Below are positions 28,170-41,997 of a stretch of DNA of 64,000 bases, one piece after another; position 1 is the first letter of the stretch; each line of letters begins with the position of its first letter. Source of the stretch: Collimonas sp. OK607 (GTDB lineage: Bacteria > Pseudomonadota > Gammaproteobacteria > Burkholderiales > Burkholderiaceae_D). The notes under the pieces are model-generated. The model was given only the letters and a program-made list of their open reading frames with translations, was not told where the DNA came from and made no database searches. Both the position numbers and the translations under genes were made by a program. The stretch covers positions 186,001-250,000 of the forward strand of contig NZ_FOKF01000002.1 of the NCBI RefSeq assembly GCF_900111995.1. Reading direction: 5' to 3'.

Positions 28170-28853
28170 TCAGGAGTGGAACTGGCGCAAGCCATCCAAG
28201 TCAAGAATGGTGATGCTGCCGTAATCCACCTTCAACAATCCCGCCTTTTCCAGTACCTGTAACGCCTGGTTGGCACGCTGGCGCGAGGCGCCGGAAAGGT
28301 TGCCGACTTCTTCCTGGGAAATTTGCAGCTCGCGGCCTATACCCGGGTTCAGATAGGGATTGAACAACGCCGCCAGGCAACGCGCAACGCGTGCGTCCGG
28401 TTCCAGCATGCGGTCGTATTCCACCAGCGAAATAAACAGCGCCAGCCGTTCATTGAGTTGCGTGACGAGGAAACGATTGAACGGGATGCTGTTATCGAGC
28501 AGCCATAGATAAGTCGCTTTCGGCATGTACAGCAGTTCGCTGTCGCGCAGCGCTACCACATCGTATTTGCGCGGTTCGCTCTTGAGCAATGAGCCTTCGC
28601 CCAGCCAGCCGCCGTTGGCCATGCCGGCAAAGGACACAGTTTTGCCCTCAGGGGAAACGCTGCTCATTTTCAGCAATCCCTCGTGCACGCCAATCCAATG
28701 GGTGACCGGATCGCCTTTGTGGCAAACAAAAGCACCGCCGGCAATCTTGCGGCTGAACATCTCCGCTTCAACGCGCGTCAGTTGTTCGCTAGTGAGCGAG
28801 CGCGCCCACATGGTCTTGGCCAGCATGTCTTTAATCGAGGTCTCTGTGATCAT
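28170..28853 (-). CDS. Crp/Fnr-family transcriptional regulator, copy 3
   Basis: A 227-residue regulator from the ATG at 28853 (MITETSIKDMLAKTMWARSL). The jelly roll (GGAFVCHKGDPVTHWIGVHE, VSFAGMANGGWLGEGSLLKS) resembles a cAMP-type pocket, including GEGSLL, more than in the two copies at 18623 and 19556. The winged helix is LQISQEEVGNLSGASRQRAN. No N-terminal Cys cluster. It diverges from the transporter/ligase operon that starts at 29065, with about 210 bases between the starts, so it is a candidate regulator of that operon. Confidence 0.88.
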   Translation of the reverse strand: MITETSIKDMLAKTMWARSLTSEQLTRVEAEMFSRKIAGGAFVCHKGDPVTHWIGVHEGLLKMSSVSPEGKTVSFAGMANGGWLGEGSLLKSEPRKYDVVALRDSELLYMPKATYLWLLDNSIPFNRFLVTQLNERLALFISLVEYDRMLEPDARVARCLAALFNPYLNPGIGRELQISQEEVGNLSGASRQRANQALQVLEKAGLLKVDYGSITILDLDGLRQFHS

Positions 28854-29064
28854 TATGATGCGTTGCAATATCGAAAATTCGGCAATTGTCTGCGAGATGA
28901 CAACCCCATCCCCCGACTCACACTACTATCATCGCATAAAGCAGCGAATAACCGGCACTATAGTAAGTGCGACGTAAGGATGCCGGCCCAGACTGACTAG
29001 ACACTGACAAGCGCGCATGGCACCGGTATCGATGCCATGGGGGCATATAAAAAAGGTGGGGGCG

Positions 29065-31032
29065 ATGGTGGAGATAACACAACGTCCAGGAGCAGAGACA
29101 TTTCCAGGTTTGCTCCTGAAGCATGCCAAGGAACGCCCGCAGCAGCCGGCGTTCCGGGAAAAAGATCTCGGCATCTGGCAAGCGACGAGCTGGGCTCAGG
29201 TTGCCGAAGAAGTCCGGGCCTTTGCCTGCGGTTTGGCGGCGCTTGGCTTCCGGCGCGGCATGAGCCTGGCGATAGTCGGCAATAACTGCCCGCGACTGTA
29301 TTGGGCGATGTCAGCTGCCCAGTGCCTGGGCGGCATGCCGGTACCGTTATATCAGGATGCGCCTGCGGCCGACATGGCTTATGTCATGGACGATGCTGAA
29401 ATCGATTTCGTGGTGGTTGAAGACCAGGAGCAGGTCGACAAGGTGTTTGAAATCAAACAGACGCTGTCGCCGCATCGGATCAGCCGCATCATCGTCGACG
29501 ACGAGCGCGGCATGCGCAATTATCATCAGCCGGAACTGACATCGTTTGCCAAGGTGACGGAGATGGGCCGGGCGTATGACCAGATGCATCCCGATTTCTT
29601 CATGAGCCAGGTCAATGCCGGGCGGGCCGATGACATCGCTATCATCCTGTATACCTCCGGCACCACCGGTAAACCGAAAGGTGTGTGCCATACGCATGCG
29701 GCGATGATCACCACGGCCCAGACCCTGGTTGAGTTCGATCAGTTGAACCAGCAAGACGATGTGCTGTGTTATCTGCCGCTAGCCTGGGTCGGCGACTTCC
29801 TGTATTCGTTTGCCCAGGCGCATGTGGCCGGCTTCTGCCTGAATTGCCCGGAATCGCCGAATACCGTGATGATGGATCTGCGTGAGATCGGGCCGACTTA
29901 TTATTTTGCACCGCCGCGTGTCTATGAAAATATCTTGACGCAAGTGATGATCAGGATCGAAGACGCCGGCTGGATAAAACGCAAGCTGTTCCATACCTTC
30001 ATGAGTATCGCGCGGCGGGTCGGGATTCGCATACTCGATAAAAAGCCTGATGTGTCGCTCACCGATCGCTTGTTGTACGGGATCGGCGATCTGCTGATCT
30101 ACGGGCCGTTGAAGAATGTACTCGGCATGTCGCGGATCCGGGTTGCCTATACCGGCGGCGAGGCTATCGGCCCCGATCTTTTCGATTTCTACCGTTCGCT
30201 GGGCATCAACCTGAAGCAGTTGTACGGCATGACCGAAACCTGCGTCACCGTCTGCATGCAGCCATCCGGCGACGTCAAGCTGGATACGGTGGGGCGGCCG
30301 ATGAAAGGGGTCGAGGTACATATCGACAGCAAGGGCGAAGTGCTCGTGCGTTCGCCGGGTTTGATGAAAGCGTACTTCAAACGGCCGGAAGCAACCGCCG
30401 AAGCGATCGACTCCGACGGTTATTTTCATACTGGCGATGCCGGATTTTTCGACGGCGACGGCCATTTGAAGATCATCGACCGCGCCAAGGATGTCGGCAA
30501 GATGGCTGGCGGCACCTTGTTTGCACCGAAGTACATCGAAAACAAATTGAAGTTCTTTCCCTTCGTTAAAGAAGCGGTGGTGTTCGGCAATCAGCGTGAG
30601 CAATGCACGGCGTTTATCAATATCGACATGGATGCAGTCGGTAACTGGGCCGAGCGCCGCAACCTGGCTTACAGCAGTTATACCGATCTTGCAGCACAGA
30701 AGGCGGTATATGGCCTGATCGCCGATTGCGTCGAGAAAGTGAATGCCGACCTGGTGCAGGATCCTTTGCTGGCGGCGTCGCAGATTCACCGCTTTTTGAT
30801 CCTGCACAAAGAGCTGGATGCCGATGACGACGAGTTGACGCGGACCCGCAAGGTGCGGCGCGATTTCATCGCCACCAAGTACGCAGTGCTGATTGACGCT
30901 CTGTATGGCGGCAGGCAATCGCAATACATAGAAACCCAGGTCAAGTTCGAAGACGGCCGGCAAGGCATGATCGCTGCCGACTTGCAGATCGTCGACGCCA
31001 AGACTTTCGCCACCATTGATAAAGCGGCCTGA
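29065..31032 (+). CDS. Long-chain-type acyl-CoA synthetase (AMP-forming)
   Basis: A 655-residue enzyme that activates a carboxylic acid to its CoA thioester via an acyl-adenylate. The start at 29065 follows GGTGGGGGCG; the upstream ATG at 29017 is less likely. Motifs: YTSGTTGKPKGVCHTHAAMI (P-loop-like ATP site), YFAPPRVYENILTQV, YGMTETCVTVCMQPSG, and the hinge region GYFHTGDAGFFDGDGHLKII followed by DRAKDVGKMAGGTLFAPKYI. Length and the long segment before the ATP site match the fatty-acid/aromatic FadD-like clade (AMP-dependent synthetase with an extended C terminus). It leads an operon with a complete ABC importer: four bases separate its stop from the first ATPase gene. The substrate is probably the transported acid. 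Confidence 0.9.
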   Translation: MVEITQRPGAETFPGLLLKHAKERPQQPAFREKDLGIWQATSWAQVAEEVRAFACGLAALGFRRGMSLAIVGNNCPRLYWAMSAAQCLGGMPVPLYQDAPAADMAYVMDDAEIDFVVVEDQEQVDKVFEIKQTLSPHRISRIIVDDERGMRNYHQPELTSFAKVTEMGRAYDQMHPDFFMSQVNAGRADDIAIILYTSGTTGKPKGVCHTHAAMITTAQTLVEFDQLNQQDDVLCYLPLAWVGDFLYSFAQAHVAGFCLNCPESPNTVMMDLREIGPTYYFAPPRVYENILTQVMIRIEDAGWIKRKLFHTFMSIARRVGIRILDKKPDVSLTDRLLYGIGDLLIYGPLKNVLGMSRIRVAYTGGEAIGPDLFDFYRSLGINLKQLYGMTETCVTVCMQPSGDVKLDTVGRPMKGVEVHIDSKGEVLVRSPGLMKAYFKRPEATAEAIDSDGYFHTGDAGFFDGDGHLKIIDRAKDVGKMAGGTLFAPKYIENKLKFFPFVKEAVVFGNQREQCTAFINIDMDAVGNWAERRNLAYSSYTDLAAQKAVYGLIADCVEKVNADLVQDPLLAASQIHRFLILHKELDADDDELTRTRKVRRDFIATKYAVLIDALYGGRQSQYIETQVKFEDGRQGMIAADLQIVDAKTFATIDKAA

Positions 31033-31036
31033 TCCT

Positions 31037-31921
31037 ATGAGTGCGATCCTGAAAAGAGATGTCACGGAAGAAGTCTTCCCGGTGGAAACGGCGCTGGCTG
31101 GTGCAACGTTGCACGATCCGGAACCGCAAGCGACAGGCAAGGGCCGCAACATCGGCGAAGTGGTGCTGGACCTGCAGAATATTTCGCTGTCGTTCGGCGG
31201 CGTCAAGGCGCTCACCGATATTTCGTTCAATGTGAAAGAACATGAGATCCGCGCCATCATCGGCCCTAACGGCGCCGGGAAAAGCTCGATGATCAACGTC
31301 ATCAACGGCGTCTACCATCCGCAAAAGGGCAGCATCGTATTTCACGGCGTGCCACGGCACAGCATGAATCCGAGCACGGTGGCGCGGCAGGGGATTGCGC
31401 GCACTTTCCAGAATATCGCCCTGTTCAAGGGGATGACGGTGCTGGATAACATCATGACCGGGCGTAATACCAAGATGCATTCCAGCTTCCTGGCCAACGC
31501 AATCTGGTGGGGGCGGGCGCGCAATGAAGAGGTCCAGCATCGGCGCAAGGTCGAGGAAGTCATCGATTTCCTGGAAATCCAGCACATCCGCAAAACACCG
31601 GTCGGACGTTTGCCCTATGGCCTGCAAAAACGGGTGGAGCTGGCGCGCGCGCTGGCGGCGGAGCCAAGCATGTTGCTGCTGGACGAGCCTATGGCCGGCA
31701 TGAATGTCGAAGAAAAGCAGGATATGTGCCGCTTCATCCTGGACGTCAACGATCAGTTCGGCACCACCATCGTCCTGATCGAACACGACATGGGTGTGGT
31801 GATGGACATCTCGGACCGTGTCGTGGTGCTCGATTACGGCAAGAAAATCGGCGACGGCACCCCTGACGAAGTCATGAACAATCCCGAAGTCATCAAAGCC
31901 TACCTCGGTAGCTCTCACTAA
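31037..31921 (+). CDS. ABC transporter ATPase, LivG type
   Basis: A 294-residue ATPase of the branched-chain/hydrophobic-amino-acid (HAAT) importer family. ATG at 31037, directly after the synthetase stop; the in-frame TTG at 31016 would overlap it. Walker A IGPNGAGKSSMINVINGVY, signature LPYGLQKRVELARALAAEPS, Walker B MLLLDEPMAGM and the His-loop IVLIEHDMGVVMDISDRVVV are intact. The signature reads LPYGLQKR instead of LSGGQ, which is normal for LivG. The first 40 residues form an extra N-terminal extension before VVLDLQNISLSFGGV. Works with the two permeases, the binding protein and the LivF-type ATPase downstream. Confidence 0.92.
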   Translation: MSAILKRDVTEEVFPVETALAGATLHDPEPQATGKGRNIGEVVLDLQNISLSFGGVKALTDISFNVKEHEIRAIIGPNGAGKSSMINVINGVYHPQKGSIVFHGVPRHSMNPSTVARQGIARTFQNIALFKGMTVLDNIMTGRNTKMHSSFLANAIWWGRARNEEVQHRRKVEEVIDFLEIQHIRKTPVGRLPYGLQKRVELARALAAEPSMLLLDEPMAGMNVEEKQDMCRFILDVNDQFGTTIVLIEHDMGVVMDISDRVVVLDYGKKIGDGTPDEVMNNPEVIKAYLGSSH

Positions 31922-31934
31922 ACGGAGGCGGTAA

Positions 31935-32849
31935 ATGCAATTTTTCTTTGAGGTGACGCTAAGCGGTTTGCTTTCGGGCCTGATGTACTCGCTGGTGGCG
32001 CTCGGTTTCGTGCTGATCTACAAGGCTTCCGGCGTATTCAATTTCGCCCAGGGCGCCATGGTTTATTTCGCCGCACTGGCGGTGGTTGGCTTGATGGACA
32101 AGGGTTTGCCAATGTGGGCGGCGATTATCGGCGCTTTTCTGGTGATGATAGTGGTGGCCGTGGCGACCGAACGGCTGGTGCTGCGCAAACTCGTCAACCA
32201 GCCGCCGATCACGCTATTCATGGCCACCATCGGGCTGGCTTTTTTTCTGGAGGGTTTGGGGCCGATGCTGTTCGGCAGCGAAGTGCGGGCGATCAACCTG
32301 GGTATCGTGGATGAGCCGATTGCTTCCATCATGGATGGTTTCGGCATCGGGATTTCCAAGTTCGACCTGTTCGCTTCCGGTATGGTGATCGGGCTGGTAC
32401 TTCTGCTGGCCTTGTTTTTCCAGAAGACGAAAGTCGGGCGGGCCTTGCGCGCCGTAGCCGACGACCATCAGGCGGCGCTCTCGCTGGGGATTCCCTTGCG
32501 CCATATCTGGGTCATCGTCTGGGGCGTAGCCGGGTTTGTGGCGCTGGTTGCAGGCTTGCTGTGGGGTTCGCGTAACGGCGTCCAGTTCGCTTTGACGATG
32601 ACCGCGTTGAAAGCCTTGCCGGTGCTGATACTCGGCGGCTTTACTTCGATTCCCGGGGCGATAGCGGGCGGCCTGATTATCGGCGTATCTGAAAAACTGG
32701 CCGAGATTTATATCCCGCCGGTCATGCAAGACATGTTTGGCGGCAATTTCGGTGGCATAGAAGGATGGTTCCCTTATGTGTTCGCTTTGCTGTTCCTGCT
32801 GGTGCGGCCGGAAGGCTTGTTCGGCGAGCGCCATATCGATCGTGTGTGA
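31935..32849 (+). CDS. ABC transporter permease, LivH type
   Basis: A 304-residue inner-membrane protein with eight or so hydrophobic segments, preceded by GGAGGCGG. It has the LivH pattern: FFEVTLSGLLSGLMYSLVAL, GFVLIYKASGVFNFAQGAMV, and the EAA-like loop GRALRAVADDHQAALSLGIP, ending with LLFLLVRPEGLFGERHIDRV. Thirteen bases follow the LivG-type gene. Pairs with the LivM-type permease to form the transport channel. Confidence 0.92.
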   Translation: MQFFFEVTLSGLLSGLMYSLVALGFVLIYKASGVFNFAQGAMVYFAALAVVGLMDKGLPMWAAIIGAFLVMIVVAVATERLVLRKLVNQPPITLFMATIGLAFFLEGLGPMLFGSEVRAINLGIVDEPIASIMDGFGIGISKFDLFASGMVIGLVLLLALFFQKTKVGRALRAVADDHQAALSLGIPLRHIWVIVWGVAGFVALVAGLLWGSRNGVQFALTMTALKALPVLILGGFTSIPGAIAGGLIIGVSEKLAEIYIPPVMQDMFGGNFGGIEGWFPYVFALLFLLVRPEGLFGERHIDRV

Positions 32850-32896
32850 TGCTTTGAACACCCACAGAACCCTGAGAATTCGAACGGAGACATGCC

Positions 32897-33973
32897 ATGC
32901 TTTATCGTGAGGCCGGACAGTTTAAAACCTCGTACATCGCGGATAGCCAGATATTTCCGATTCGGCAGGACCGCATCGGCATGTTTATCTTGCTGGCCGT
33001 TGCATTTATCGGCATTCCCATGATCGGCAGCGAATACTGGTTTTCCGCCATCCTGATCCCATTTCTGGTGTTTGCGCTGGCGGCGCTGGGCTTGAACATA
33101 TTGACCGGTTATGCTGGCCAGCTATCGCTGGGCTCTGCCGCGTTCATGGCGGTGGGCGCCTACGCTGCCTATAACTTCCAGCTACGAATCGAGGGTATTC
33201 CGATTTTGCTGTCCTTCATCCTGGCCGGATGCTGCGCGGCTGCCGTCGGTGTCTTGTTCGGCTTGCCGTCGTTGCGTATCAAGGGTTTCTACCTGGCGGT
33301 GGCGACGCTGGCCGCGCAATTTTTCGTAATCTGGGCGCTGACCAAGTTTCCTTGGTTTTCCAACGACAGCTCTTCCGGCGTGATCAGCGCGCAAAAGATC
33401 GATCTGTTCGGCATCGCCATCAACACGCCGGTCAAGAAATACCTGTTCGTACTGGCGATTGTCTGCGTGATGGCGCTGCTGGCCAAAAACCTGGTGCGTT
33501 CATCCACCGGACGGGCCTGGATGGCGGTACGCGATATGGACGTTGCCGCGGAAGTCATCGGCATTCGTCTGATGCCGACCAAGCTGCTGGCGTTTGCCGT
33601 CAGTTCCTTTTTCTGCGGTGTCGCTGGCGCTTTGTACGCCTTTTGCTACCTGGGTTCGGTGGAGCCGGATGGCTTTTCCCTGGATTTGTCGTTCCGCATC
33701 CTGTTCATGATTATCGTCGGTGGCGTCGGTAGCATCCTGGGGGCATTTCTTGGTTCTGCCTTTATTTTGCTGCTCCCGATTTTCCTGGATAACGTCTTGC
33801 CGCCGCTGGCCACCTGGCTGCACCTGCCATTCACCAACGCCACCGTGTCGCATATCCAGATGATGCTGTTTGGCGCTTTGATCATTTTTTTCCTGATAGT
33901 AGAACCGCACGGGCTGGCGCGCCTGTGGCAGATCACCAAAGAGAAACTGCGCTTGTGGCCGTTCCCGCATTGA
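32897..33973 (+). CDS. ABC transporter permease, LivM type
   Basis: A 358-residue inner-membrane protein, the second channel subunit. Conserved parts are LTGYAGQLSLGSAAFMAVGA, the loop STGRAWMAVRDMDVAAEVIG and GGVGSILGAFLGSAFILLLP, with a cytoplasmic tail VEPHGLARLWQITKEKLRLW. A longer hydrophilic N terminus of about 35 residues (YREAGQFKTSYIADSQIFPI) precedes the first membrane segment, which is typical for the members found with acyl-CoA synthetases. Spacing to the LivH-type gene is 47 bases and to the binding protein 60 bases. Confidence 0.92.
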   Translation: MLYREAGQFKTSYIADSQIFPIRQDRIGMFILLAVAFIGIPMIGSEYWFSAILIPFLVFALAALGLNILTGYAGQLSLGSAAFMAVGAYAAYNFQLRIEGIPILLSFILAGCCAAAVGVLFGLPSLRIKGFYLAVATLAAQFFVIWALTKFPWFSNDSSSGVISAQKIDLFGIAINTPVKKYLFVLAIVCVMALLAKNLVRSSTGRAWMAVRDMDVAAEVIGIRLMPTKLLAFAVSSFFCGVAGALYAFCYLGSVEPDGFSLDLSFRILFMIIVGGVGSILGAFLGSAFILLLPIFLDNVLPPLATWLHLPFTNATVSHIQMMLFGALIIFFLIVEPHGLARLWQITKEKLRLWPFPH

Positions 33974-34033
33974 TTGGTACGGAAGGTTTTAAGCAGTTCC
34001 GAGTTCAGATAACCAGTACCAGGAGACCAGATA

Positions 34034-35356
34034 ATGAAAACTATTAAACAAATCATGCTCGCTGTCGCCGCTGCAGCTTGCCTGCTGGCGCCGGCCTTGC
34101 CGGCGATGGCGCAGGCTACCGATCAATTCATTGCGATTCCAAGCTATCGGGTCGGTCCTTACGGCACCAACGGCCAATCCTATTACGGCGGCTATATCGA
34201 CTACCTGAGCTACGTTAACCTGAAAGAAGGTGGCATCAACGGCGTCAAGTTGTCGTGGGAAGAATGTGAAACTGAATATAACAACGCCAAGGGCGTGGAA
34301 TGCTACGAACGCCTGAAAGGGAAGAATCCGATTACGAAAGGTACGGCAATCAATGCCATGGCGACCGGCATCGCCTACGCCTTGATCGACAAAACGGCAG
34401 AAGACAAGGTGCCGCTGCTGATGGTGGGTTATGGCCGCACCGATGCGGTCGACGGCTCGGTGTTTCCGTACGCCTTCCCACTGGTGACTACCTACCAGAT
34501 GCAGATTTCGGCGATCGTGAAATACCTGGCAAGTAAAAACAACGGTTCGCTGGCGGGCAAGAAGATCGTGTTCTTGTACCACGACTCGGCCTACGGCAAG
34601 GAACCGATAGTAGCTTTGGAAGCCGAGGCGACGCTGGGCAAGTTCAAAGTAGTGCAGATCCCGGTTGCCCATCCCGGCAACGAGCAGGGTGCGCAATGGC
34701 TGAAAATCCGCCAGGAAAATCCGGACTACGTCATCTTCTGGGGCTGGGGCGTGATGAACCAGACTGCCTTGAAAGCTGCGCAGAAGGTTGGTTTTGCACG
34801 CGACAAGATCATCGGCTCATGGTGGGCCGGGTCTGAGGAAGACACCGTCCCGGCCGGCGATGCCGCCAAGGGTTATCTGAGCGCTACCTGGAATGTTTCC
34901 GGCAAAAACGTCCCGCTGATCGCCGATATCGAGAAAGTGGTGTATGGCGCCGGCAAGGGAAATATGCAGGACAAGGCGAAGATCGGTTCGATACTTTATA
35001 ACCGTGGCGTATCGGCGGCACTGGCTACCGTGGAAGCGATACGGACCGCCCAGACCAAGTACGGCAAAGGCAAGGTCATGAGCGGAGAAGATGTGCGCTG
35101 GGGACTGGAGAATCTGAACATCACCAACGCCCGCCTCCAGCAACTTGGCGCTACCGGCCTGCTGCCTGAAATCAAGACCTCCTGCGATAACCACGAAGGT
35201 TCGGGCAAGATCAAGGTCCAGCAATGGGATGGCAGCAAGTGGGTGCTGGTATCCGATTGGATCGAAGGCAACAAGAACCTGATCCACCCGCTGTTCAAGG
35301 CTTCCGCTGCGAAGTATGCAAAAGAAAAGGGCATCACGCCCGCCTGCCTGAAGTAA
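34034..35356 (+). CDS. ABC transporter substrate-binding protein, HAAT type
   Basis: A 440-residue periplasmic protein with a signal peptide (KQIMLAVAAAACLLAPALPA, then MAQA). The two-lobe pattern of Leu/Ile/Val-type binding proteins is visible: YRVGPYGTNGQSYYGGYIDY, KKIVFLYHDSAYGKEPIVAL, WLKIRQENPDYVIFWGWGVM, IGSWWAGSEEDTVPAGDAAK. The mature protein is larger than LivJ (about 345) and has a conserved tail with one Cys pair (LPEIKTSCDNH, ITPACLK), which can be a disulfide. The ligand-contact Ser/Thr motifs of LivJ are not obvious, so the ligand is probably not a plain amino acid. A stable hairpin follows its stop, before the LivF-type gene. Confidence 0.88.
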   Translation: MKTIKQIMLAVAAAACLLAPALPAMAQATDQFIAIPSYRVGPYGTNGQSYYGGYIDYLSYVNLKEGGINGVKLSWEECETEYNNAKGVECYERLKGKNPITKGTAINAMATGIAYALIDKTAEDKVPLLMVGYGRTDAVDGSVFPYAFPLVTTYQMQISAIVKYLASKNNGSLAGKKIVFLYHDSAYGKEPIVALEAEATLGKFKVVQIPVAHPGNEQGAQWLKIRQENPDYVIFWGWGVMNQTALKAAQKVGFARDKIIGSWWAGSEEDTVPAGDAAKGYLSATWNVSGKNVPLIADIEKVVYGAGKGNMQDKAKIGSILYNRGVSAALATVEAIRTAQTKYGKGKVMSGEDVRWGLENLNITNARLQQLGATGLLPEIKTSCDNHEGSGKIKVQQWDGSKWVLVSDWIEGNKNLIHPLFKASAAKYAKEKGITPACLK

Positions 35357-35366
35357 ATAGCGTCAG

Positions 35367-35393
35367 CGTCGGCACCCGGCCGGGTGGCCGACG
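35367..35393 (+). other. Intra-operon hairpin after the binding-protein gene
   Basis: CGTCGGCACCC and GGGTGGCCGACG pair with a single bulged base around GGCC, 11 bases after the binding-protein stop. A short TTCTTATT follows. It could act as a partial terminator or mRNA-stabilising structure that makes binding protein more abundant than the downstream ATPase. Confidence 0.5.
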
Positions 35394-35418
35394 TTCTTAT
35401 TGCATAGCTGAGGGAAGC

Positions 35419-36222
35419 ATGGGTACAGCACTCAAAATTAACAATATCGAAGTGATCTACGACCACGTCATCCTGGTGCTGAAAGGGGTATCGTTGGCTG
35501 TGCCGCAAGGGAAAATCGTCGCTTTGCTGGGCGCCAACGGCGCCGGCAAAAGCACGACATTGAAAGCGATCTCCAATCTGTTGTCGGCGGAGCGCGGAGA
35601 TGTTACCAAAGGCAGCATCGAATACAACGGCGAGCGGGTCGACCGCCTGACTCCGAACGACCTGGTAAAACGCGGTGTGATCCAGGTGATGGAAGGACGC
35701 CATTGTTTCGGCCATCTGACGGTGGAAGAAAATCTCTTGACCGGTGCTTACACCCGTAACATCAGCAATACCCAGGTCAAACAGGAGCTGGAAAAGATCT
35801 ACGACTATTTCCCGCGTTTGAAAGTGCGGCGCAAATCGCAATCCGGCTATACCTCTGGCGGCGAACAGCAGATGACGGCAATCGGGCGGGCGATGATGGC
35901 CAAGCCATCGATGATCTTGCTGGATGAACCGTCGATGGGTCTTGCTCCGCAGGTGGTCGAGGAAATCTTTGAAATCGTCAAGGATCTGAACCGCAGGGAA
36001 AACGTATCCTTCCTGCTGGCCGAACAAAACACCATGGTGGCGCTGCGTTATGCCGATTTCGGCTACATCCTGGAAAACGGCCGGGTGGTGATGGAAGGCG
36101 CCGCCAGCGAGCTGGCCAGCAACGAAGACGTGAAAGAGTTCTATCTGGGCGTATCGGCTGCAGGGCGCAAGAATTTCCGCGACATGAAATTTTATCGGCG
36201 CCGCAAACGCTGGCTGGCCTGA
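35419..36222 (+). CDS. ABC transporter ATPase, LivF type
   Basis: A 267-residue ATPase, the second nucleotide-binding subunit of the importer. The ATG at 35419 has GAGGGAAG upstream; the earlier in-frame start at 35224 overlaps the binding-protein gene and is not credible. Walker A LLGANGAGKSTTLKAISN, signature TSGGEQQMTAIGRAMMAKPS, Walker B MILLDEPSMGLAPQVVEEIF. The C-terminal RRRKRWLA extension beyond the core is longer than in E. coli LivF. Completes a five-gene transport unit together with genes 31037-35356. Confidence 0.92.
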   Translation: MGTALKINNIEVIYDHVILVLKGVSLAVPQGKIVALLGANGAGKSTTLKAISNLLSAERGDVTKGSIEYNGERVDRLTPNDLVKRGVIQVMEGRHCFGHLTVEENLLTGAYTRNISNTQVKQELEKIYDYFPRLKVRRKSQSGYTSGGEQQMTAIGRAMMAKPSMILLDEPSMGLAPQVVEEIFEIVKDLNRRENVSFLLAEQNTMVALRYADFGYILENGRVVMEGAASELASNEDVKEFYLGVSAAGRKNFRDMKFYRRRKRWLA

Positions 36223-36283
36223 CCTTCTTATTTTTTTCCGATCTTTATCTACGTCGCTTTTCGCGCACGCATACAGGCCCGCC

Positions 36284-37543
36284 ATGTCCGACATTCTCGA
36301 TCCCCTTGAACAACGCCCGCCACAACAGCGCGAGACAGACCTGATGGCGAACCTGCCGCAACTGGTTGCGCGCGCGCAGGGGGCTGCAGGCTGGGCGCGT
36401 ATTCTGCACGGCGTATCCGCCGCCGATATCCGGGATCGTGCCGCGCTGGCGCAATTGCCTGTCACGCGCAAATCGGACTTACACGATTTGCAGGCGCAAG
36501 AGCCGCCATTCGGAGGGTTGACGACAACCCCGCACCGCCAACTGCGGCGCCTGTACGTTTCGCCCGGGCCGATTTTCGATCCTGAGGGCTATAGCCAGGA
36601 CTGGTGGCGTTTTGCGCGGCCGATGCGCGCCTTGGGATTGCGCGCCGGCCACTTGATACAAAATTGTTTCGCCTATCATTTCACGCCAGCTGCCTTCATG
36701 GTTGAAGGGGCGGCTGGCAAGCTGGGTTGTGCCGTGATCCCGGCCGGCATCGGACAGACGGAACTGCAGGTGCAGGCGATGGCGGCATTGCGCCCCGACG
36801 CTTATGTCGGCACTCCGTCTTTCCTCAAGATCATTATCGAGAAGGCGCGCGAGATGGGTGCCGATATAGGCAGCCTGCAGCGCGCGCTGCTCAGCGCCGA
36901 AGCCTTGCCGCCGTCGCTGCGCCAGTGGTTCCACGATAACGGCGTACCGAACGTGCTGCAATTGTACGCCTCGGCTGACATCGGCAATATAGCTTACGAG
37001 TCGCTCAGCAACGGTCAGCTCAATCCGGGTATGATCCTGGATGAGGACCTGATCCTGGAAATCGTACGGCCAGGCACCGGTGATCCGGTTGCCGCCGGTG
37101 AGGTCGGCGAGGTGGTGCTGACTTCTTTCAATCCGGATTATCCTCTGATACGTTTCGCCACCGGTGATTTGTCGGCGGTGCTGGAAGGTGTCTCGCCATG
37201 CGGCCGCACCAATACTCGCATCAAGGGCTGGATGGGGCGCGCCGACCAGGTAACCAAGGTGCGCGGCATGTTCGTCCATCCGTCGCAACTGGCAGAAGTG
37301 CTGAAGCGTCATCCGCAGATCCTGAAGGCGCGCCTGGTAGTGAGTGGCGCGATGGCGAATGATGTGATGACGCTGCATTGCGAGTTGCCAGCTTCAGCTG
37401 CTGCTACAGCAACGCATGCAGCAGAGCAGATTGCCGACAGTCTGCGCGAATTGACTAAACTACGCGGCGAGATTCTGTTTGTCGCGCCGGGCAGCCTGCC
37501 GAATGACGGTAAGGTCATCGAGGATGCCCGCAAATACGAATGA
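36284..37543 (+). CDS. PaaK-like AMP-binding protein with altered ATP loop
   Basis: A 419-residue protein of the phenylacetate-CoA ligase family by overall pattern: HLIQNCFAYHFTPAAFMVEG, AYVGTPSFLKIIIEKAREMG, VLQLYASADIGNIAYES (in the place of the YGxTE motif), GDPVAAGEVGEVVLTSFNPD, PLIRFATGDLSAVL, the linker RTNTRIKGWMGRADQVTKVR and GMFVHPSQL. In normal PaaK the nucleotide loop is SSGTTGxP; here the same place reads LYVSPGPIFDPEGY, so ATP-dependent adenylation may be impaired or different. It lies 61 bases behind the LivF-type gene and likely belongs to the transport operon. Alternatives: a dedicated ligase for the same substrate, or a CoA-transfer partner of the first synthetase. Confidence 0.8.
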   Translation: MSDILDPLEQRPPQQRETDLMANLPQLVARAQGAAGWARILHGVSAADIRDRAALAQLPVTRKSDLHDLQAQEPPFGGLTTTPHRQLRRLYVSPGPIFDPEGYSQDWWRFARPMRALGLRAGHLIQNCFAYHFTPAAFMVEGAAGKLGCAVIPAGIGQTELQVQAMAALRPDAYVGTPSFLKIIIEKAREMGADIGSLQRALLSAEALPPSLRQWFHDNGVPNVLQLYASADIGNIAYESLSNGQLNPGMILDEDLILEIVRPGTGDPVAAGEVGEVVLTSFNPDYPLIRFATGDLSAVLEGVSPCGRTNTRIKGWMGRADQVTKVRGMFVHPSQLAEVLKRHPQILKARLVVSGAMANDVMTLHCELPASAAATATHAAEQIADSLRELTKLRGEILFVAPGSLPNDGKVIEDARKYE

Positions 37544-37555
37544 AGGAAGCAGGGC

Positions 37556-38305
37556 ATGTCAAAGCAAGTAATTGTAATTACCGGCGCCAGCCGCGGGATT
37601 GGCGCCGCCACGGCCCATTTGGCCGCAGCGCGCGGTTACGCCGTGTGCGTCAACTATGTGCATAACCGCAGCGCCGCCGAGTCGGTGGTGGCGGCGATTC
37701 GCGCGGCTGGCGGCGAAGCGTTGGCGGTAGCCGGCGATGTTGCCGTCGAGGCTGACGTGCTGAATCTGTTTCAAACGGTGGATGCAGAACTCGGCACGGT
37801 GACCGCCTTGGTCAACAACGCCGGTATCCTGGAGCGGCAGATGCGTGTCGAAGAAATGGACGTGGCCCGTTTGCAGCGCGTGTTCACCACCAATATCGTC
37901 GGCAGTTTCTTGTGCGCCCGTGAGGCGGTGCGACGCATGTCTACCCGTTTCGGCGGCCACGGCGGCGCCATCGTCAATCTGTCGTCGATGGCGGCAAAAC
38001 TCGGCGGTCCGGGAGAGTACGTCGATTACGCGGCATCCAAGGGAGCGATCGACGCCATGACGGTCGGCTTGGCGAAAGAGGTTGCCGATCAGGGTATCCG
38101 TGTCAATGCGGTCAGGCCCGGCGTCATCTATACCGATATCCATGCCAGCGGCGGCGAACCAGGCCGGGTCGATCGTGTCAAGGACTCGGTGCCGATGCAG
38201 CGCGGCGGCAGCGCCGAGGAAGTGGCGCGCGCGATCATGTGGCTGGTGTCGGACGAAGCATCCTATTGCACCGGCACATTTGTCGATGTTGCCGGCGGCC
38301 GTTAA
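37556..38305 (+). CDS. SDR-family oxidoreductase (FabG-like)
   Basis: A 249-residue short-chain dehydrogenase/reductase. Cofactor motif TGASRGIGAATAHLAAARGY, the NNAG strand (ALVNNAGILERQM), the catalytic triad Ser (LSSMAAKLG), Tyr and Lys (YVDYAASKGAIDAM), and the C-terminal FVDVAGGR are all present. YxxxK residues are complete, so it should be active, with NADP(H) preference suggested by the Arg after Ser in TGASRG. The start is 13 bases behind the PaaK-like gene with AAGGAAGCAGGG upstream, so it is probably the last gene of the operon. It may reduce or oxidise a hydroxyacyl or ketoacyl intermediate of the imported acid. Confidence 0.88.
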   Translation: MSKQVIVITGASRGIGAATAHLAAARGYAVCVNYVHNRSAAESVVAAIRAAGGEALAVAGDVAVEADVLNLFQTVDAELGTVTALVNNAGILERQMRVEEMDVARLQRVFTTNIVGSFLCAREAVRRMSTRFGGHGGAIVNLSSMAAKLGGPGEYVDYAASKGAIDAMTVGLAKEVADQGIRVNAVRPGVIYTDIHASGGEPGRVDRVKDSVPMQRGGSAEEVARAIMWLVSDEASYCTGTFVDVAGGR

Positions 38306-39079: not shown

Positions 39080-39670
39080 TTACTGTCCGTTATGAATCAC
39101 CACTAGCAACGCGGTAGCCGCATTCTTGCCGACATTCTTGATGTAATGAGGGCGATCCGCCGCATAGCGTGCGGTTTCGCCCACTTTGATCTTGGTGATG
39201 TTGCTGCCGCTCTGGACTTCCAATGTGCCGGACAAGACCGTCAGATGTTCGCGCGAAGCCGGTTCGTGCGCCTCTGAATCGAGGCAACCGCCAGGCTCCA
39301 CCGACAGTTCATACCATTCAAACTGGCCGGCCAGTTCGATCGGACCGAGGATGCGCAGCACGCAATGGCCGTCTCTTGACCGCAGCGATGGCGTCGCATG
39401 GCTGGGCAGGGTTTCTATCGATGCAGGAGCTGCCTGGTTACCGTCAACCAGCAGCGAGATAGGGACGCCCAGGGCATTGGCCAGGCGCCATACCACAGCA
39501 ACCGTGGGGTTCGCCTGGTTGCGCTCGATTTGGGATAGCATGGACTTGGAGACGCCGGCGCGTTTCGATAAGGCATCCAGCGACAACCCGTCGGCCTGGC
39601 GCAGCTTGACCAAGGTATCGCCCACCTTCGGCGGTGCATCTTCCAAATTTTTAACTGTATTGATGCTCAT
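39080..39670 (-). CDS. XRE-cupin transcriptional regulator
   Basis: A 196-residue regulator (start at 39670, MSINTVKNLEDAPP; ATG at 39697 is an alternative, neither has a strong ribosome binding site). Residues 18-75 are a helix-turn-helix of the XRE type (VKLRQADGLSLDALSKRAGV, SKSMLSQIERNQANPT); the C-terminal half is a small cupin barrel (FEWYELSVEPGGCLDSEAHE, EHLTVLSGTLEVQSG, GETARYAADRPHYIKNVG) that likely binds a small metabolite. It diverges from kbl and the threonine dehydrogenase gene, and a perfect palindrome lies between them. Control of threonine breakdown, perhaps by threonine or glycine, is a reasonable inference. Confidence 0.88.
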   Translation of the reverse strand: MSINTVKNLEDAPPKVGDTLVKLRQADGLSLDALSKRAGVSKSMLSQIERNQANPTVAVVWRLANALGVPISLLVDGNQAAPASIETLPSHATPSLRSRDGHCVLRILGPIELAGQFEWYELSVEPGGCLDSEAHEPASREHLTVLSGTLEVQSGSNITKIKVGETARYAADRPHYIKNVGKNAATALLVVIHNGQ

Positions 39671-39713
39671 CTGGTTGACAACCTCGTTTTTGTGCATTAT
39701 CGTGGAATTCACG

Positions 39714-39727
39714 TTCGATATATCGAA
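39714..39727. promoter_or_regulatory. Palindrome TTCGATATATCGAA, candidate XRE-cupin operator
   Basis: A perfect 14-bp palindrome in the 92-base gap between the XRE-cupin gene and kbl. Its centre is 43 bases before the kbl start, placing it near the expected promoter of both genes. Confidence 0.5.
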
Positions 39728-39762
39728 TTAGGGCAATATATTATATAAGATTGAGGCTGAAA

Positions 39763-40998
39763 ATGACACTAACTACAGGCACAGAAGTAAGCGCGAGCGC
39801 TGGCTCTCCCGGGTTTTACACGCATCTGCAGGATGAATTGGCTGGAATCAAGGCCGCCGGGCTGTTGAAGTCCGAGCGCCTTATCCTTGGCCCGCAGGGC
39901 GGCAAGATCAATACCGCAAGTGGTGAGTTGATCAACTTGTGCGCCAACAACTACCTGGGATTGTCTTCTCATCCAGCCTTGATCAAAGCCGCGCACGCCG
40001 CCCTGGACAGCCATGGTTTCGGCATGAGTTCAGTGCGTTTCATTTGCGGCACGCAAGACATCCATCGCGAACTGGAACAGCGCTTGTCGGCGTTCCTGGG
40101 GACCGAGGACTGCATTCTGTATGCGGCGGCGTTCGATGCCAACGGCGGCTTGTTTGAACCGTTGCTGGGAGAACAGGACGCCATCATCAGCGATTCGCTC
40201 AACCATGCATCGATTATCGACGGCGTCCGCCTGTGCAAGGCCAAGCGCTACCGTTATGCCCACAACGACATGGAAGACCTGGAGCGCTGTCTGAAGCAGG
40301 CTAAAGCTGACAACGCCCGCTTTGCCATGGTGTTTACCGATGGCGTGTTTTCGATGGACGGCACGGTGGCGCAGCTCGACGTCATCCGCCAGCTGTGCGA
40401 CAAGTACGATGCTCTGCTTGGCGTCGATGACTGCCACGCCACCGGTTTCATGGGCGCCCGCGGACGAGGCACACATGAAGCGCGCGGCATCTTCGGCAAA
40501 GTCGATGTGATTACCGGCACCTTGGGCAAAGCCCTGGGCGGCGCCAGCGGCGGCTTCACTGCGGGCCGGCGCGAGGTGATCGAATTGCTGCGGCAGCGGT
40601 CGCGGCCTTACCTGTTTTCAAATACCTTGATGCCGGCGATCGTCGGCGCTTCGATCGAGGCGCTTAATCTGCTGGAAGCGTCGACTGAGTTGCGCGACCA
40701 CCTTGAGCGCAACACCGTTTACTTCCGCAAGGCCATCACTGAAGCCGGTTTCGAGATCAAGCCGGGTACCCATCCGATCGTGCCGTTGATGGTGTATGAC
40801 GCCGTGGTGGCGCAAAACCTTTCGCGTCGCCTGTATGAACTCGGTGTCTACGCCGTTGGTTTTTTCTATCCGGTTGTACCGCAAGGGCAGGCGCGGATTC
40901 GTGTGCAGATGTCGGCGGTCCACGATGAGGCGACATTGCAGCGCGCGGTGGGTATCTTCCGGCAAGCCGGTGAAGAGCTTGGCCTGCTGAAGAACTGA
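39763..40998 (+). CDS. kbl: Glycine C-acetyltransferase (2-amino-3-ketobutyrate CoA ligase)
   Basis: A 411-residue PLP enzyme of the alpha-oxoamine synthase family. It cleaves 2-amino-3-oxobutyrate with CoA to glycine and acetyl-CoA, the second step of threonine breakdown. Motifs: [78 protein letters not shown] and the PLP lysine in [20 protein letters not shown]. The start at 39763 follows GAGGCTG. The N terminus is a little longer than E. coli Kbl (398). The dehydrogenase that makes its substrate is encoded 36 bases downstream. Confidence 0.95.
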
Positions 40999-41034
40999 AG
41001 AGAAGAATTGAAGAGAGGAATTGAAGATAAAACC

Positions 41035-41997
41035 ATGAAAAAAATATTGGTAATCGGCGCCAACGGCCAGATCGGCACCGAACTGACGACCGCACTGGTC
41101 AAACTGCACGGCGCAAAGCAAGTTGTTGCGAGCGACATACAAGCCCTGGGCCGGCACCAGGAACTGGCATACGAAAAACTGGATGTGACAGACGCCAGGC
41201 GCCTGGCCGAGGTCGTGCAGCAACACGATATCGGTGAAATCTATCACCTGGCTGCGGCATTGTCGGCCAAAGGCGAAGAACATCCGGAATGGGCCTGGAA
41301 CCTGAACATGACCGGTCTCTTGAACGTGCTGGAAGTAGCGCGCCAGGCCAAGCTGTCAAAAGTGTTCTGGCCTAGTTCGATTGCAGCGTTCGGTCCCTCG
41401 ACGCCGCGCGACAACGCACCGCAGGTCGGCGCCATGGATCCGAAGACCGTCTACGGCATCTCCAAACTGGCGGGTGAGCATTGGTGTAGCTGGTATGCGG
41501 AGAAATACGGCATGGATATCCGCAGTTTGCGCTATCCGGGGTTGATCAGCTACTCGGCCGAACCGGGAGGCGGCACCACCGATTACGCCATTCAGGCCCT
41601 GTTTGCCGCCGCTGACGGTCATGACTACACCAGCTTCCTGGATGTGGATAGCACGCTGCCGATGATGTACATGCCGGATGCCGTGCGCGCCACCATCGAA
41701 CTGATGAGTGCACCGAAAGAACAGTTGAAAGTTACCGGTTCATACAATCTCGCGGCATGGAGTTTTTCTCCGCGCGAGCTGGTCGATATCATCCAGCAGC
41801 GTTACCCATCGTTCAAGGTTGCGTACAAGCCGGATTTCCGCCAGGCGATTGCGGATGCATGGCCGCGCTCGATTGATGATTCGCAGGCTCGGCAGGATTG
41901 GCAGTGGTTGCCGGCATACAGCTTGACCGATATGGTTGACGACATGCTGGCGCATCTGGCCGCACGTAAGCAGGTAACCCAGGAACAAGCGGCTTGA
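41035..41997 (+). CDS. SDR-type L-threonine 3-dehydrogenase
   Basis: A 320-residue NAD-dependent enzyme of the extended short-chain dehydrogenase type, unrelated to the zinc-dependent E. coli Tdh. It oxidises threonine to 2-amino-3-oxobutyrate, the substrate of Kbl. Dinucleotide motif VIGANGQIGTELTTALV, DVTDARRLAEVV, catalytic Tyr/Lys in YGISKLAGEHWC, and the Ser site VFWPSSIAAFG fit the NAD-epimerase-like threonine dehydrogenases. The start at 41035 is used as it gives the expected N terminus. A general nucleotide-sugar epimerase is the alternative, but the position after kbl settles it. Confidence 0.88.
   Translation: MKKILVIGANGQIGTELTTALVKLHGAKQVVASDIQALGRHQELAYEKLDVTDARRLAEVVQQHDIGEIYHLAAALSAKGEEHPEWAWNLNMTGLLNVLEVARQAKLSKVFWPSSIAAFGPSTPRDNAPQVGAMDPKTVYGISKLAGEHWCSWYAEKYGMDIRSLRYPGLISYSAEPGGGTTDYAIQALFAAADGHDYTSFLDVDSTLPMMYMPDAVRATIELMSAPKEQLKVTGSYNLAAWSFSPRELVDIIQQRYPSFKVAYKPDFRQAIADAWPRSIDDSQARQDWQWLPAYSLTDMVDDMLAHLAARKQVTQEQAA

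Follow-up and report, generated by a model that had tools for sequence, protein, structure and literature searches.

A conserved seven-gene Liv-type transporter and acyl-CoA synthetase cassette with a P-loop-less PaaK relative, possibly serving short branched-chain acids

Introduction

What does a bacterium take up with an operon that joins an acyl-CoA synthetase (ACS) to a complete Liv-type ABC transporter and a relative of PaaK? The question is raised by a 64,000-nt stretch of the 5.37-Mb genome of Collimonas sp. OK607 (contig NZ_FOKF01000002.1, positions 186,001 to 250,000; hereafter the window), in which eight + strand genes occupy positions 29065-38305 and a Crp/Fnr-type gene lies divergently at 28170-28868. 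A sequence-only reading had taken the eight genes for an operon that imports and activates a carboxylic acid of unknown identity. Here, we show that seven of these genes form a cassette conserved across bacterial classes and that its PaaK-like protein has lost the ATP P-loop throughout its family, and we weigh which acid the cassette might handle. We found no description of the cassette among the matches listed in the open-access literature; the extent of its conservation, its operator, the place of the dehydrogenase outside its core, the loss of the P-loop and the suggestion of a branched short-chain acid are new.

Conservation of the cassette

To assess conservation, we used an alignment search with the PaaK-like protein, which yielded at least 590 relatives. 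The best 80 were kept as a first set of loci (L051-L130), and a second set of 80 regions (L142-L221) comprised 40 from alpha/gamma and 40 from beta lineages. Both sets were found via the PaaK-like gene and share two identical proteins (158/160 distinct), and counts from either give the frequency of the cassette given a PaaK-like gene, not of the PaaK-like gene given a transporter.

Where the contig was long enough, the gene order in the first set was mostly ACS-LivG-LivH-LivM-binding protein-LivF-PaaK-like, with L071 as an exception. In the second set, all from Pseudomonadota, the PaaK-like gene was preceded by the full set of six partners on its own strand in 73/80 regions; in the remaining regions, the partners were on the other strand (one), were cut off by a contig end (one), or were missing, leaving the PaaK-like gene alone (five). 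Twelve of these 80 regions represent a second subtype with a LivG-ACS order and a different binding protein. The reverse check, starting from the binding protein, covered the 20 best loci with 1.5-kb flanks and found the PaaK-like gene downstream in 17, the exceptions being two that end too early (L012 and L018) and a lone binding-protein gene (L017). The conservation of this order across classes confirms that the operon is real and not a chance arrangement, and ACS, LivG, LivH, LivM, the binding protein, LivF and the PaaK-like gene constitute an old seven-gene cassette.

The eighth gene, encoding a short-chain dehydrogenase (SDR; 37556-38305, + strand; adh_short_C2; NF004777 at 449 bits versus a cutoff of 383), follows the PaaK-like gene in all eight other Collimonas genomes examined. 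Outside Collimonas, we saw relatives just downstream on the same strand only in L129 and L188, each at 35% identity. We therefore rejected the SDR as a core part, and the eight-gene unit originally proposed becomes a conserved cassette of seven genes with a Collimonas addition.

The PaaK-like gene was present in 67 of 398 Pseudomonadota genomes and 97 of 300 Burkholderiales genomes sampled. Since the binding protein has a close copy, at 95-100% identity, in only 8 of 14 same-genus relatives, the cassette is accessory within Collimonas.

Some loci depart from the usual arrangement. In two Burkholderiales loci (L085, 11325-17400; L111, 1-2600), a second ABC set, including an ACS in L085, lies in tandem with the cassette and lacks a PaaK-like gene of its own, as if one PaaK-like protein served two gene sets. 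In Xanthobacter Py2 (L137, 11498-20841), the cassette is rearranged, the PaaK-like gene being flanked by a PaaD-type gene and the ACS and lying upstream of the transporter genes. One 2.6-Mb Burkholderiales genome (G045) shows an unusual expansion of the binding-protein family, with 18 matches, several of them in tandem, alongside two PaaK-like genes. Contigs labeled Klebsiella pneumoniae and Singulisphaera (L078 and L101) hold a PaaK-like gene at 58-59% identity; these are probably mis-binned or mislabeled metagenome-assembled genomes.

Gene content of the operon

Every gene named in the sequence-only reading is an open frame at its place, and Pfam backs each assignment. The ACS (29065-31032), a member of the ANL family, has an AMP-binding domain (PF00501, 238.5 bits; PF23562, 28.9 bits) with an intact P-loop, LYTSGTTGKPKG. 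Its start is preceded by a purine-rich AAGGTGGGGG stretch, and an alternative longer frame opens at 29017. Across loci, the ACS P-loop fits the strict pattern in 43 of 51 cases and is a variant loop in seven, with L117 as the remaining one. The LivG-type ATPase (31016-31921; PF00005 ABC_tran and PF12399 BCA_ABC_TP_C) overlaps the ACS by 17 bases and is followed by a LivH-type permease (31935-32849) and a LivM-type permease (32897-33973), both PF02653 BPD_transp_2. Next come a 440-aa periplasmic binding protein of the HAAT type (34034-35356; PF13458 Peripla_BP_6), a LivF-type ATPase (ABC_tran; 35419-36222, the likely ATG being at 35419 in a frame listed from 35224) and the PaaK-like ANL protein (36284-37543; AMP-binding, C-terminal part only). 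All are on the + strand, and the remaining intergenic gaps measure 12-62 bases. With two BPD_transp_2 permeases, two ABC ATPases and a Peripla_BP_6 protein, the transporter has the parts of a HAAT (Liv-type) importer. A scan for promoters and terminators gave nothing usable above shuffled sequence.

A PaaK relative without the ATP P-loop

The PaaK-like protein can be aligned to PaaK across most of its length, scoring 143.9 bits on the NCBIfam PaaK model TIGR02155 against a cutoff of 646.3. Its AlphaFold model (pLDDT 91.5; alignment of 64 of the 80 homologues plus the window sequence) matches PaaK2 (2y4o) with Z 35.0 over 399 aligned residues, so the PaaK fold is present; the high rmsd of 11.9 suggests a different domain arrangement. 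The fold also matches 2-hydroxyisobutyryl-CoA ligase, with Z 34-35 for both ligases, which share the two-domain ANL fold with the PaaK-like protein.

Where PaaK has SSGTTGKP, the window protein reads SPGPIFDPE, and the S, P and G are invariant in the 81 aligned sequences. SPG was found in all 160 homologues checked and a canonical P-loop in none (0/80 in each of the two sets); even the most divergent member encountered (41% identity) reads SPGNIYDPQ. By comparison, SSGTTG is retained by four PaaK relatives with 31-32% identity to the window protein, and the 2-hydroxyisobutyrate (2-HIBA) ligase of Methylibium PM1 keeps TSGTTG, whereas the PaaK-like family has neither. The YGLSE/FGLSE motif of the same four relatives is replaced by a YATAD-type motif. 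Elsewhere, the family has kept the TGD motif (81/81) and the C-terminal Lys (76/81).

This pattern looks like a family with altered function rather than a decaying gene. Because the P-loop is missing throughout its family, it would be wrong to treat the PaaK-like protein as a second synthetase, as was done previously; judging from these motifs, it appears to be no ordinary ligase and probably does not adenylate. It could instead still be a working CoA ligase that holds ATP via an unusual loop. The shared ligase fold, the TGD motif and the C-terminal Lys are in keeping with this possibility, but the SPG-type loops in every homologue checked and the YATAD-type replacement make it unlikely in our view. 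A plain PaaK/phenylacetate pathway was rejected on two grounds: the loss of the P-loop, and the Collimonas genome itself, where a search at E 1e-3 brought up no PaaK relative but this one (6 of the 13 initial candidates were scored). That the loss of the ATP loop is conserved makes for a well-defined problem in enzymology.

A recurrent palindrome links a Crp/Fnr-type regulator to the operon

The divergent regulator (28170-28868, - strand; PF00027 cNMP_binding and PF13545 HTH_Crp_2) scores 35 bits on the CRP equivalog NF008732, against a cutoff of 266, and is of the Crp/Fnr type by its domains but not CRP itself. A divergent copy is present in 37 of the 80 second-set regions (31/40 beta and 6/40 alpha/gamma). 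We examined the 34 regulator/ACS gaps, the window included, in which both genes were found and the gap was shorter than 700 bases. The palindrome TTGTC-N8-GACAA occurs exactly in 14 of these gaps and with at most one mismatch in 30, whereas shuffles that preserve base composition only reached the motif in at most 2/34 (200 shuffles). The 34 regions used for counting are also those from which the palindrome was chosen; the commonest exact palindromes in the gaps are this one (14 regions) and its shifts, and any other occurs in at most two. In the window it lies at 28886-28903, with no strand assigned, and we propose it as the Crp/Fnr operator, with a half-site spacing that suits a Crp-type dimer.

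Because the palindrome recurs in 30/34 gaps, the predicted link between the Crp/Fnr-type protein and the operon is well supported, which backs the earlier suggestion that the divergent gene is the likely regulator. The whole Collimonas genome contains two exact operator sites, compared with five for a reversed control pattern. The other exact site (C55:93396) lies inside a frame resembling an MFS transporter, and we rejected a wider regulon on this basis. A dedicated regulator with a single target is the simplest reading.

Transporter and binding protein

Each transporter subunit is Liv-like, and each falls below its Liv NCBIfam cutoff (LivG 247 versus 362, LivH 90 versus 379, LivM 116 versus 366 and LivF 204 versus 441 bits). 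At E 1e-3, NCBIfam gives no match for the binding protein. Its AlphaFold model (pLDDT 91.8; alignment of 59 sequences plus the window sequence) is closest to 4ru0 (Z 59.1, 47% identity; E 9e-130), followed by 3lkb (Z 40.5), 3eaf (Z 40.4) and 4n03 (Z 37.6). The 4ru0 protein, from the Pseudomonas fluorescens group, is a clear homologue whose match record states neither a ligand nor an operon. The title of 3lkb describes a valine-bound protein and that of 4n03 a 'Fatty acid ABC transporter substrate-binding protein', while aromatic-binding proteins of Rhodopseudomonas palustris and Bordetella appear further down, at Z ~31-33. Because the matches span valine-titled, fatty-acid-titled and aromatic binders, the structure does not fix the ligand. 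The earlier impression that this protein does not look like a plain amino-acid binder is supported: it is far from LivJ and LivK, and its nearest solved relative is 4ru0.

One residue bears on amino-acid binding. LivJ Glu226 is the residue that holds the amino group of the ligand; the residue aligned with it here is a Trp in a conserved WW, a weak test given the low identity to LivJ and the apparent lack of this Glu in 3lkb as well. In the plasmid records we saw, the permeases of the cassette bear generic 'branched-chain amino acid' names.

Gene neighborhood and substrate

We next considered the genes that recur near the cassette, measuring distances from start to start and handling kinship among genomes by family counts only; binomial and Fisher values, which carry no correction for phylogeny, were given no weight. 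All genomes with both genes served as the denominator because fragmented genomes bias same-contig distances short. Among the 300 Burkholderiales genomes, the fused isobutyryl-CoA mutase IcmF, whose identity is firm (NF045497, 1969 versus 1500 bits), was found in 74 and together with the PaaK-like gene in 67; in 25/67, from 11 families, the two genes lie within 30 kb. Reported IcmF substrates, in the part of the source available to us, are isobutyryl-CoA and pivalyl-/isovaleryl-CoA (PMC10481361). The PaaK-like gene also lies within 30 kb of an HMG-CoA lyase gene in 17 of 88 Burkholderiales genomes with both, from seven families (139 of 163 matching genomes used, among the matches listed, leaving out rows below 54% identity).

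Individual loci show similar linkage. A single 20-kb stretch (L232) holds IcmF, isovaleryl-CoA dehydrogenase (IVD), methylcrotonyl-CoA carboxylase (MCC), HMG-CoA lyase and the regulator of the cassette. On Azospirillum p2, a second-subtype cassette shares one strand with an IVD, MCC-type carboxylase and HMG-CoA lyase run, and genes for isobutyryl-CoA and 3-hydroxyisobutyrate dehydrogenases are on its other flank. Plasmids of Xanthobacter Py2 and Roseovarius THAF8 carry, upstream of the cassette and on the same strand, genes for a B12-binding subunit, the large subunit of an acyl-CoA mutase and MeaB. The mutases of the two plasmids share 67% identity, against ~35% with HcmA, and depart from HcmA at the two positions regarded as diagnostic. 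The Methylibium PM1 plasmid has transporter and PaaK-like genes at 511-517 kb, 2-HIBA ligase/mutase matches at 488-493 kb and a tert-butyl alcohol hydroxylase at 501-504 kb, the 2-HIBA ligase gene being 22 kb from the transporter/PaaK-like genes. The roles of PM1 genes in methyl tert-butyl ether (MTBE), tert-butyl alcohol and 2-hydroxyisobutyrate breakdown are from a table in the portion of PMC4517660 available to us, whose gene numbers we matched to the record via product and order.

As a control, we searched for an aromatic-CoA hydroxylase, which lies within 30 kb of the PaaK-like gene in 2 of the 35 genomes with both, both from one family. Because this hydroxylase co-occurs with the PaaK-like gene too, yet is seldom within 30 kb of it, co-occurrence is unspecific and it is physical linkage that counts. 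Together, the IcmF, HMG-CoA lyase, Azospirillum, Py2/THAF8 and PM1 neighborhoods point to C4-C5 branched acyl-CoAs.

Proposed function and alternatives

We tentatively propose, at somewhat less than an even chance, that the locus is a self-contained unit that imports and activates a small carboxylic acid, the likeliest being a short branched-chain acid (isovalerate, isobutyrate, pivalate or 2-hydroxyisobutyrate type). In this scheme, the binding protein would capture the acid in the periplasm, LivHM and LivGF would pump it inward, and the ACS would convert it to its CoA thioester, trapping it and handing it over to branched acyl-CoA breakdown. The Crp/Fnr-type protein would control the operon via TTGTC-N8-GACAA. 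The PaaK-like protein, with its ANL fold and AMP-side motifs kept, may serve to bind acyl-CoA or acyl-AMP, or to adjust the activity of the ACS or the transporter. The acid that the sequence-only reading had left unnamed is thus narrowed, a step that we infer from gene context.

The coupling of uptake to thioester formation, also suggested previously, is how a conserved ACS-HAAT cassette is most naturally read, and it has two precedents. In R. palustris, the Liv-type transporter CouPSTU is clustered and co-regulated with CouB, the CoA ligase of its substrate (PMC3610893, in part). The likeness is in transporter/ligase co-location; CouPSTU/CouB handles aromatic substrates under a MarR-type regulator, CouR, in contrast to the Crp/Fnr-type gene here, and the sections of that paper available to us mention no P-loop-less PaaK relative (PMC3610893). 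The RPA3723-3725 binding proteins adjoin PimA, an acyl-CoA ligase of matching acid range, beside pimFABCDE, also in R. palustris; this system serves fatty and dicarboxylic acids and has a beta-oxidation operon attached (PMC3223731, in part).

Several observations weigh against a short branched-chain acid. By NCBIfam, the ACS most resembles long-chain enzymes (FadD11, 320 versus a cutoff of 950; PRK06187, 218 versus 476), and the fatty-acid-titled 4n03 ranks third by Foldseek and fourth by Z among relatives of the binding protein. Most of the 80 second-set regions show none of the neighbors described above, and those found are frequently kilobases away and on other strands; in one family (f26), a salicylyl-/2-aminobenzoyl-CoA hydroxylase takes their place. 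IcmF and the PaaK-like gene share a contig in 41 genomes, and in 16 of these they are more than 30 kb apart, in seven more than 300 kb. The control hydroxylase co-occurs with the PaaK-like gene in 35/41 of its genomes. A neighboring ACS was not found for the Methylibium PM1 transporter; a search of the Collimonas genome for IcmF gave nothing at E 1e-250, and the HMG-CoA lyase of that genome is on a different contig from the cassette. Lastly, HMG-CoA lyase and MCC neighbors suit leucine uptake equally.

The alternative that survives best, although we judge it rather improbable, is that the cassette imports and activates fatty acids of medium or long chain length (or dicarboxylic acids), in the manner of RPA3723-3725. 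The best matches of the ACS and the 4n03 relative agree with it, and certain COG0683 proteins are reported to bind fatty or dicarboxylic acids; the ligands of the binding proteins screened in that work were other amino acids or aromatic, fatty or dicarboxylic acids (PMC3223731). However, the ACS falls below every curated long-chain cutoff, and the recurrent neighbors act on C4-C5 branched acyl-CoAs.

It seems less probable again that the transporter is an ordinary Liv system for a branched-chain amino acid (or a branched 2-oxo acid) and that the two ANL proteins belong to some unrelated step. This reading would explain the Liv-like character of every transporter part, the valine-titled 3lkb as second structural match and the recurrence of leucine-breakdown genes. 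The subunits nevertheless score below the Liv cutoffs, the binding protein lacks an NCBIfam match, and the residue aligned with Glu226 is a Trp, although that test is weak. The ACS lies in the operon at 73/80 loci, which argues for the import of an acid over that of an amino acid.

Least probable is an aromatic-acid importer and activator like CouPSTU/CouB: kinship with PaaK, the aromatic binders among the structural matches and aromatic-CoA hydroxylase genes downstream in five loci (one annotated) and three further regions favor it, but that linkage is confined to Comamonadaceae-type genomes and weakened by the control search, and in the Collimonas genome only this one PaaK relative matched at E 1e-3.

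If the cassette does serve short branched-chain acids, a more specific role for the PaaK-like family is possible, though doubtful: an ANL offshoot without ATP-dependent adenylation that came to work regularly alongside acid-importing ABC transporters, perhaps by taking acyl-CoA or acyl-AMP from the ACS and so coupling import to thioester trapping, in a cassette feeding B12-dependent acyl-CoA mutases. Through its linkage to IcmF and isovalerate genes, this common cassette acquires a specific list of candidate ligands, and it may provide uptake of pivalate-, isobutyrate- and 2-hydroxyisobutyrate-type acids, including products of MTBE breakdown.

Other features of the window

Downstream of the operon, at 39080-41997, a by-eye reading suggests an XRE/cupin-type regulator frame divergent from KBL-like and epimerase-type threonine dehydrogenase-like frames.

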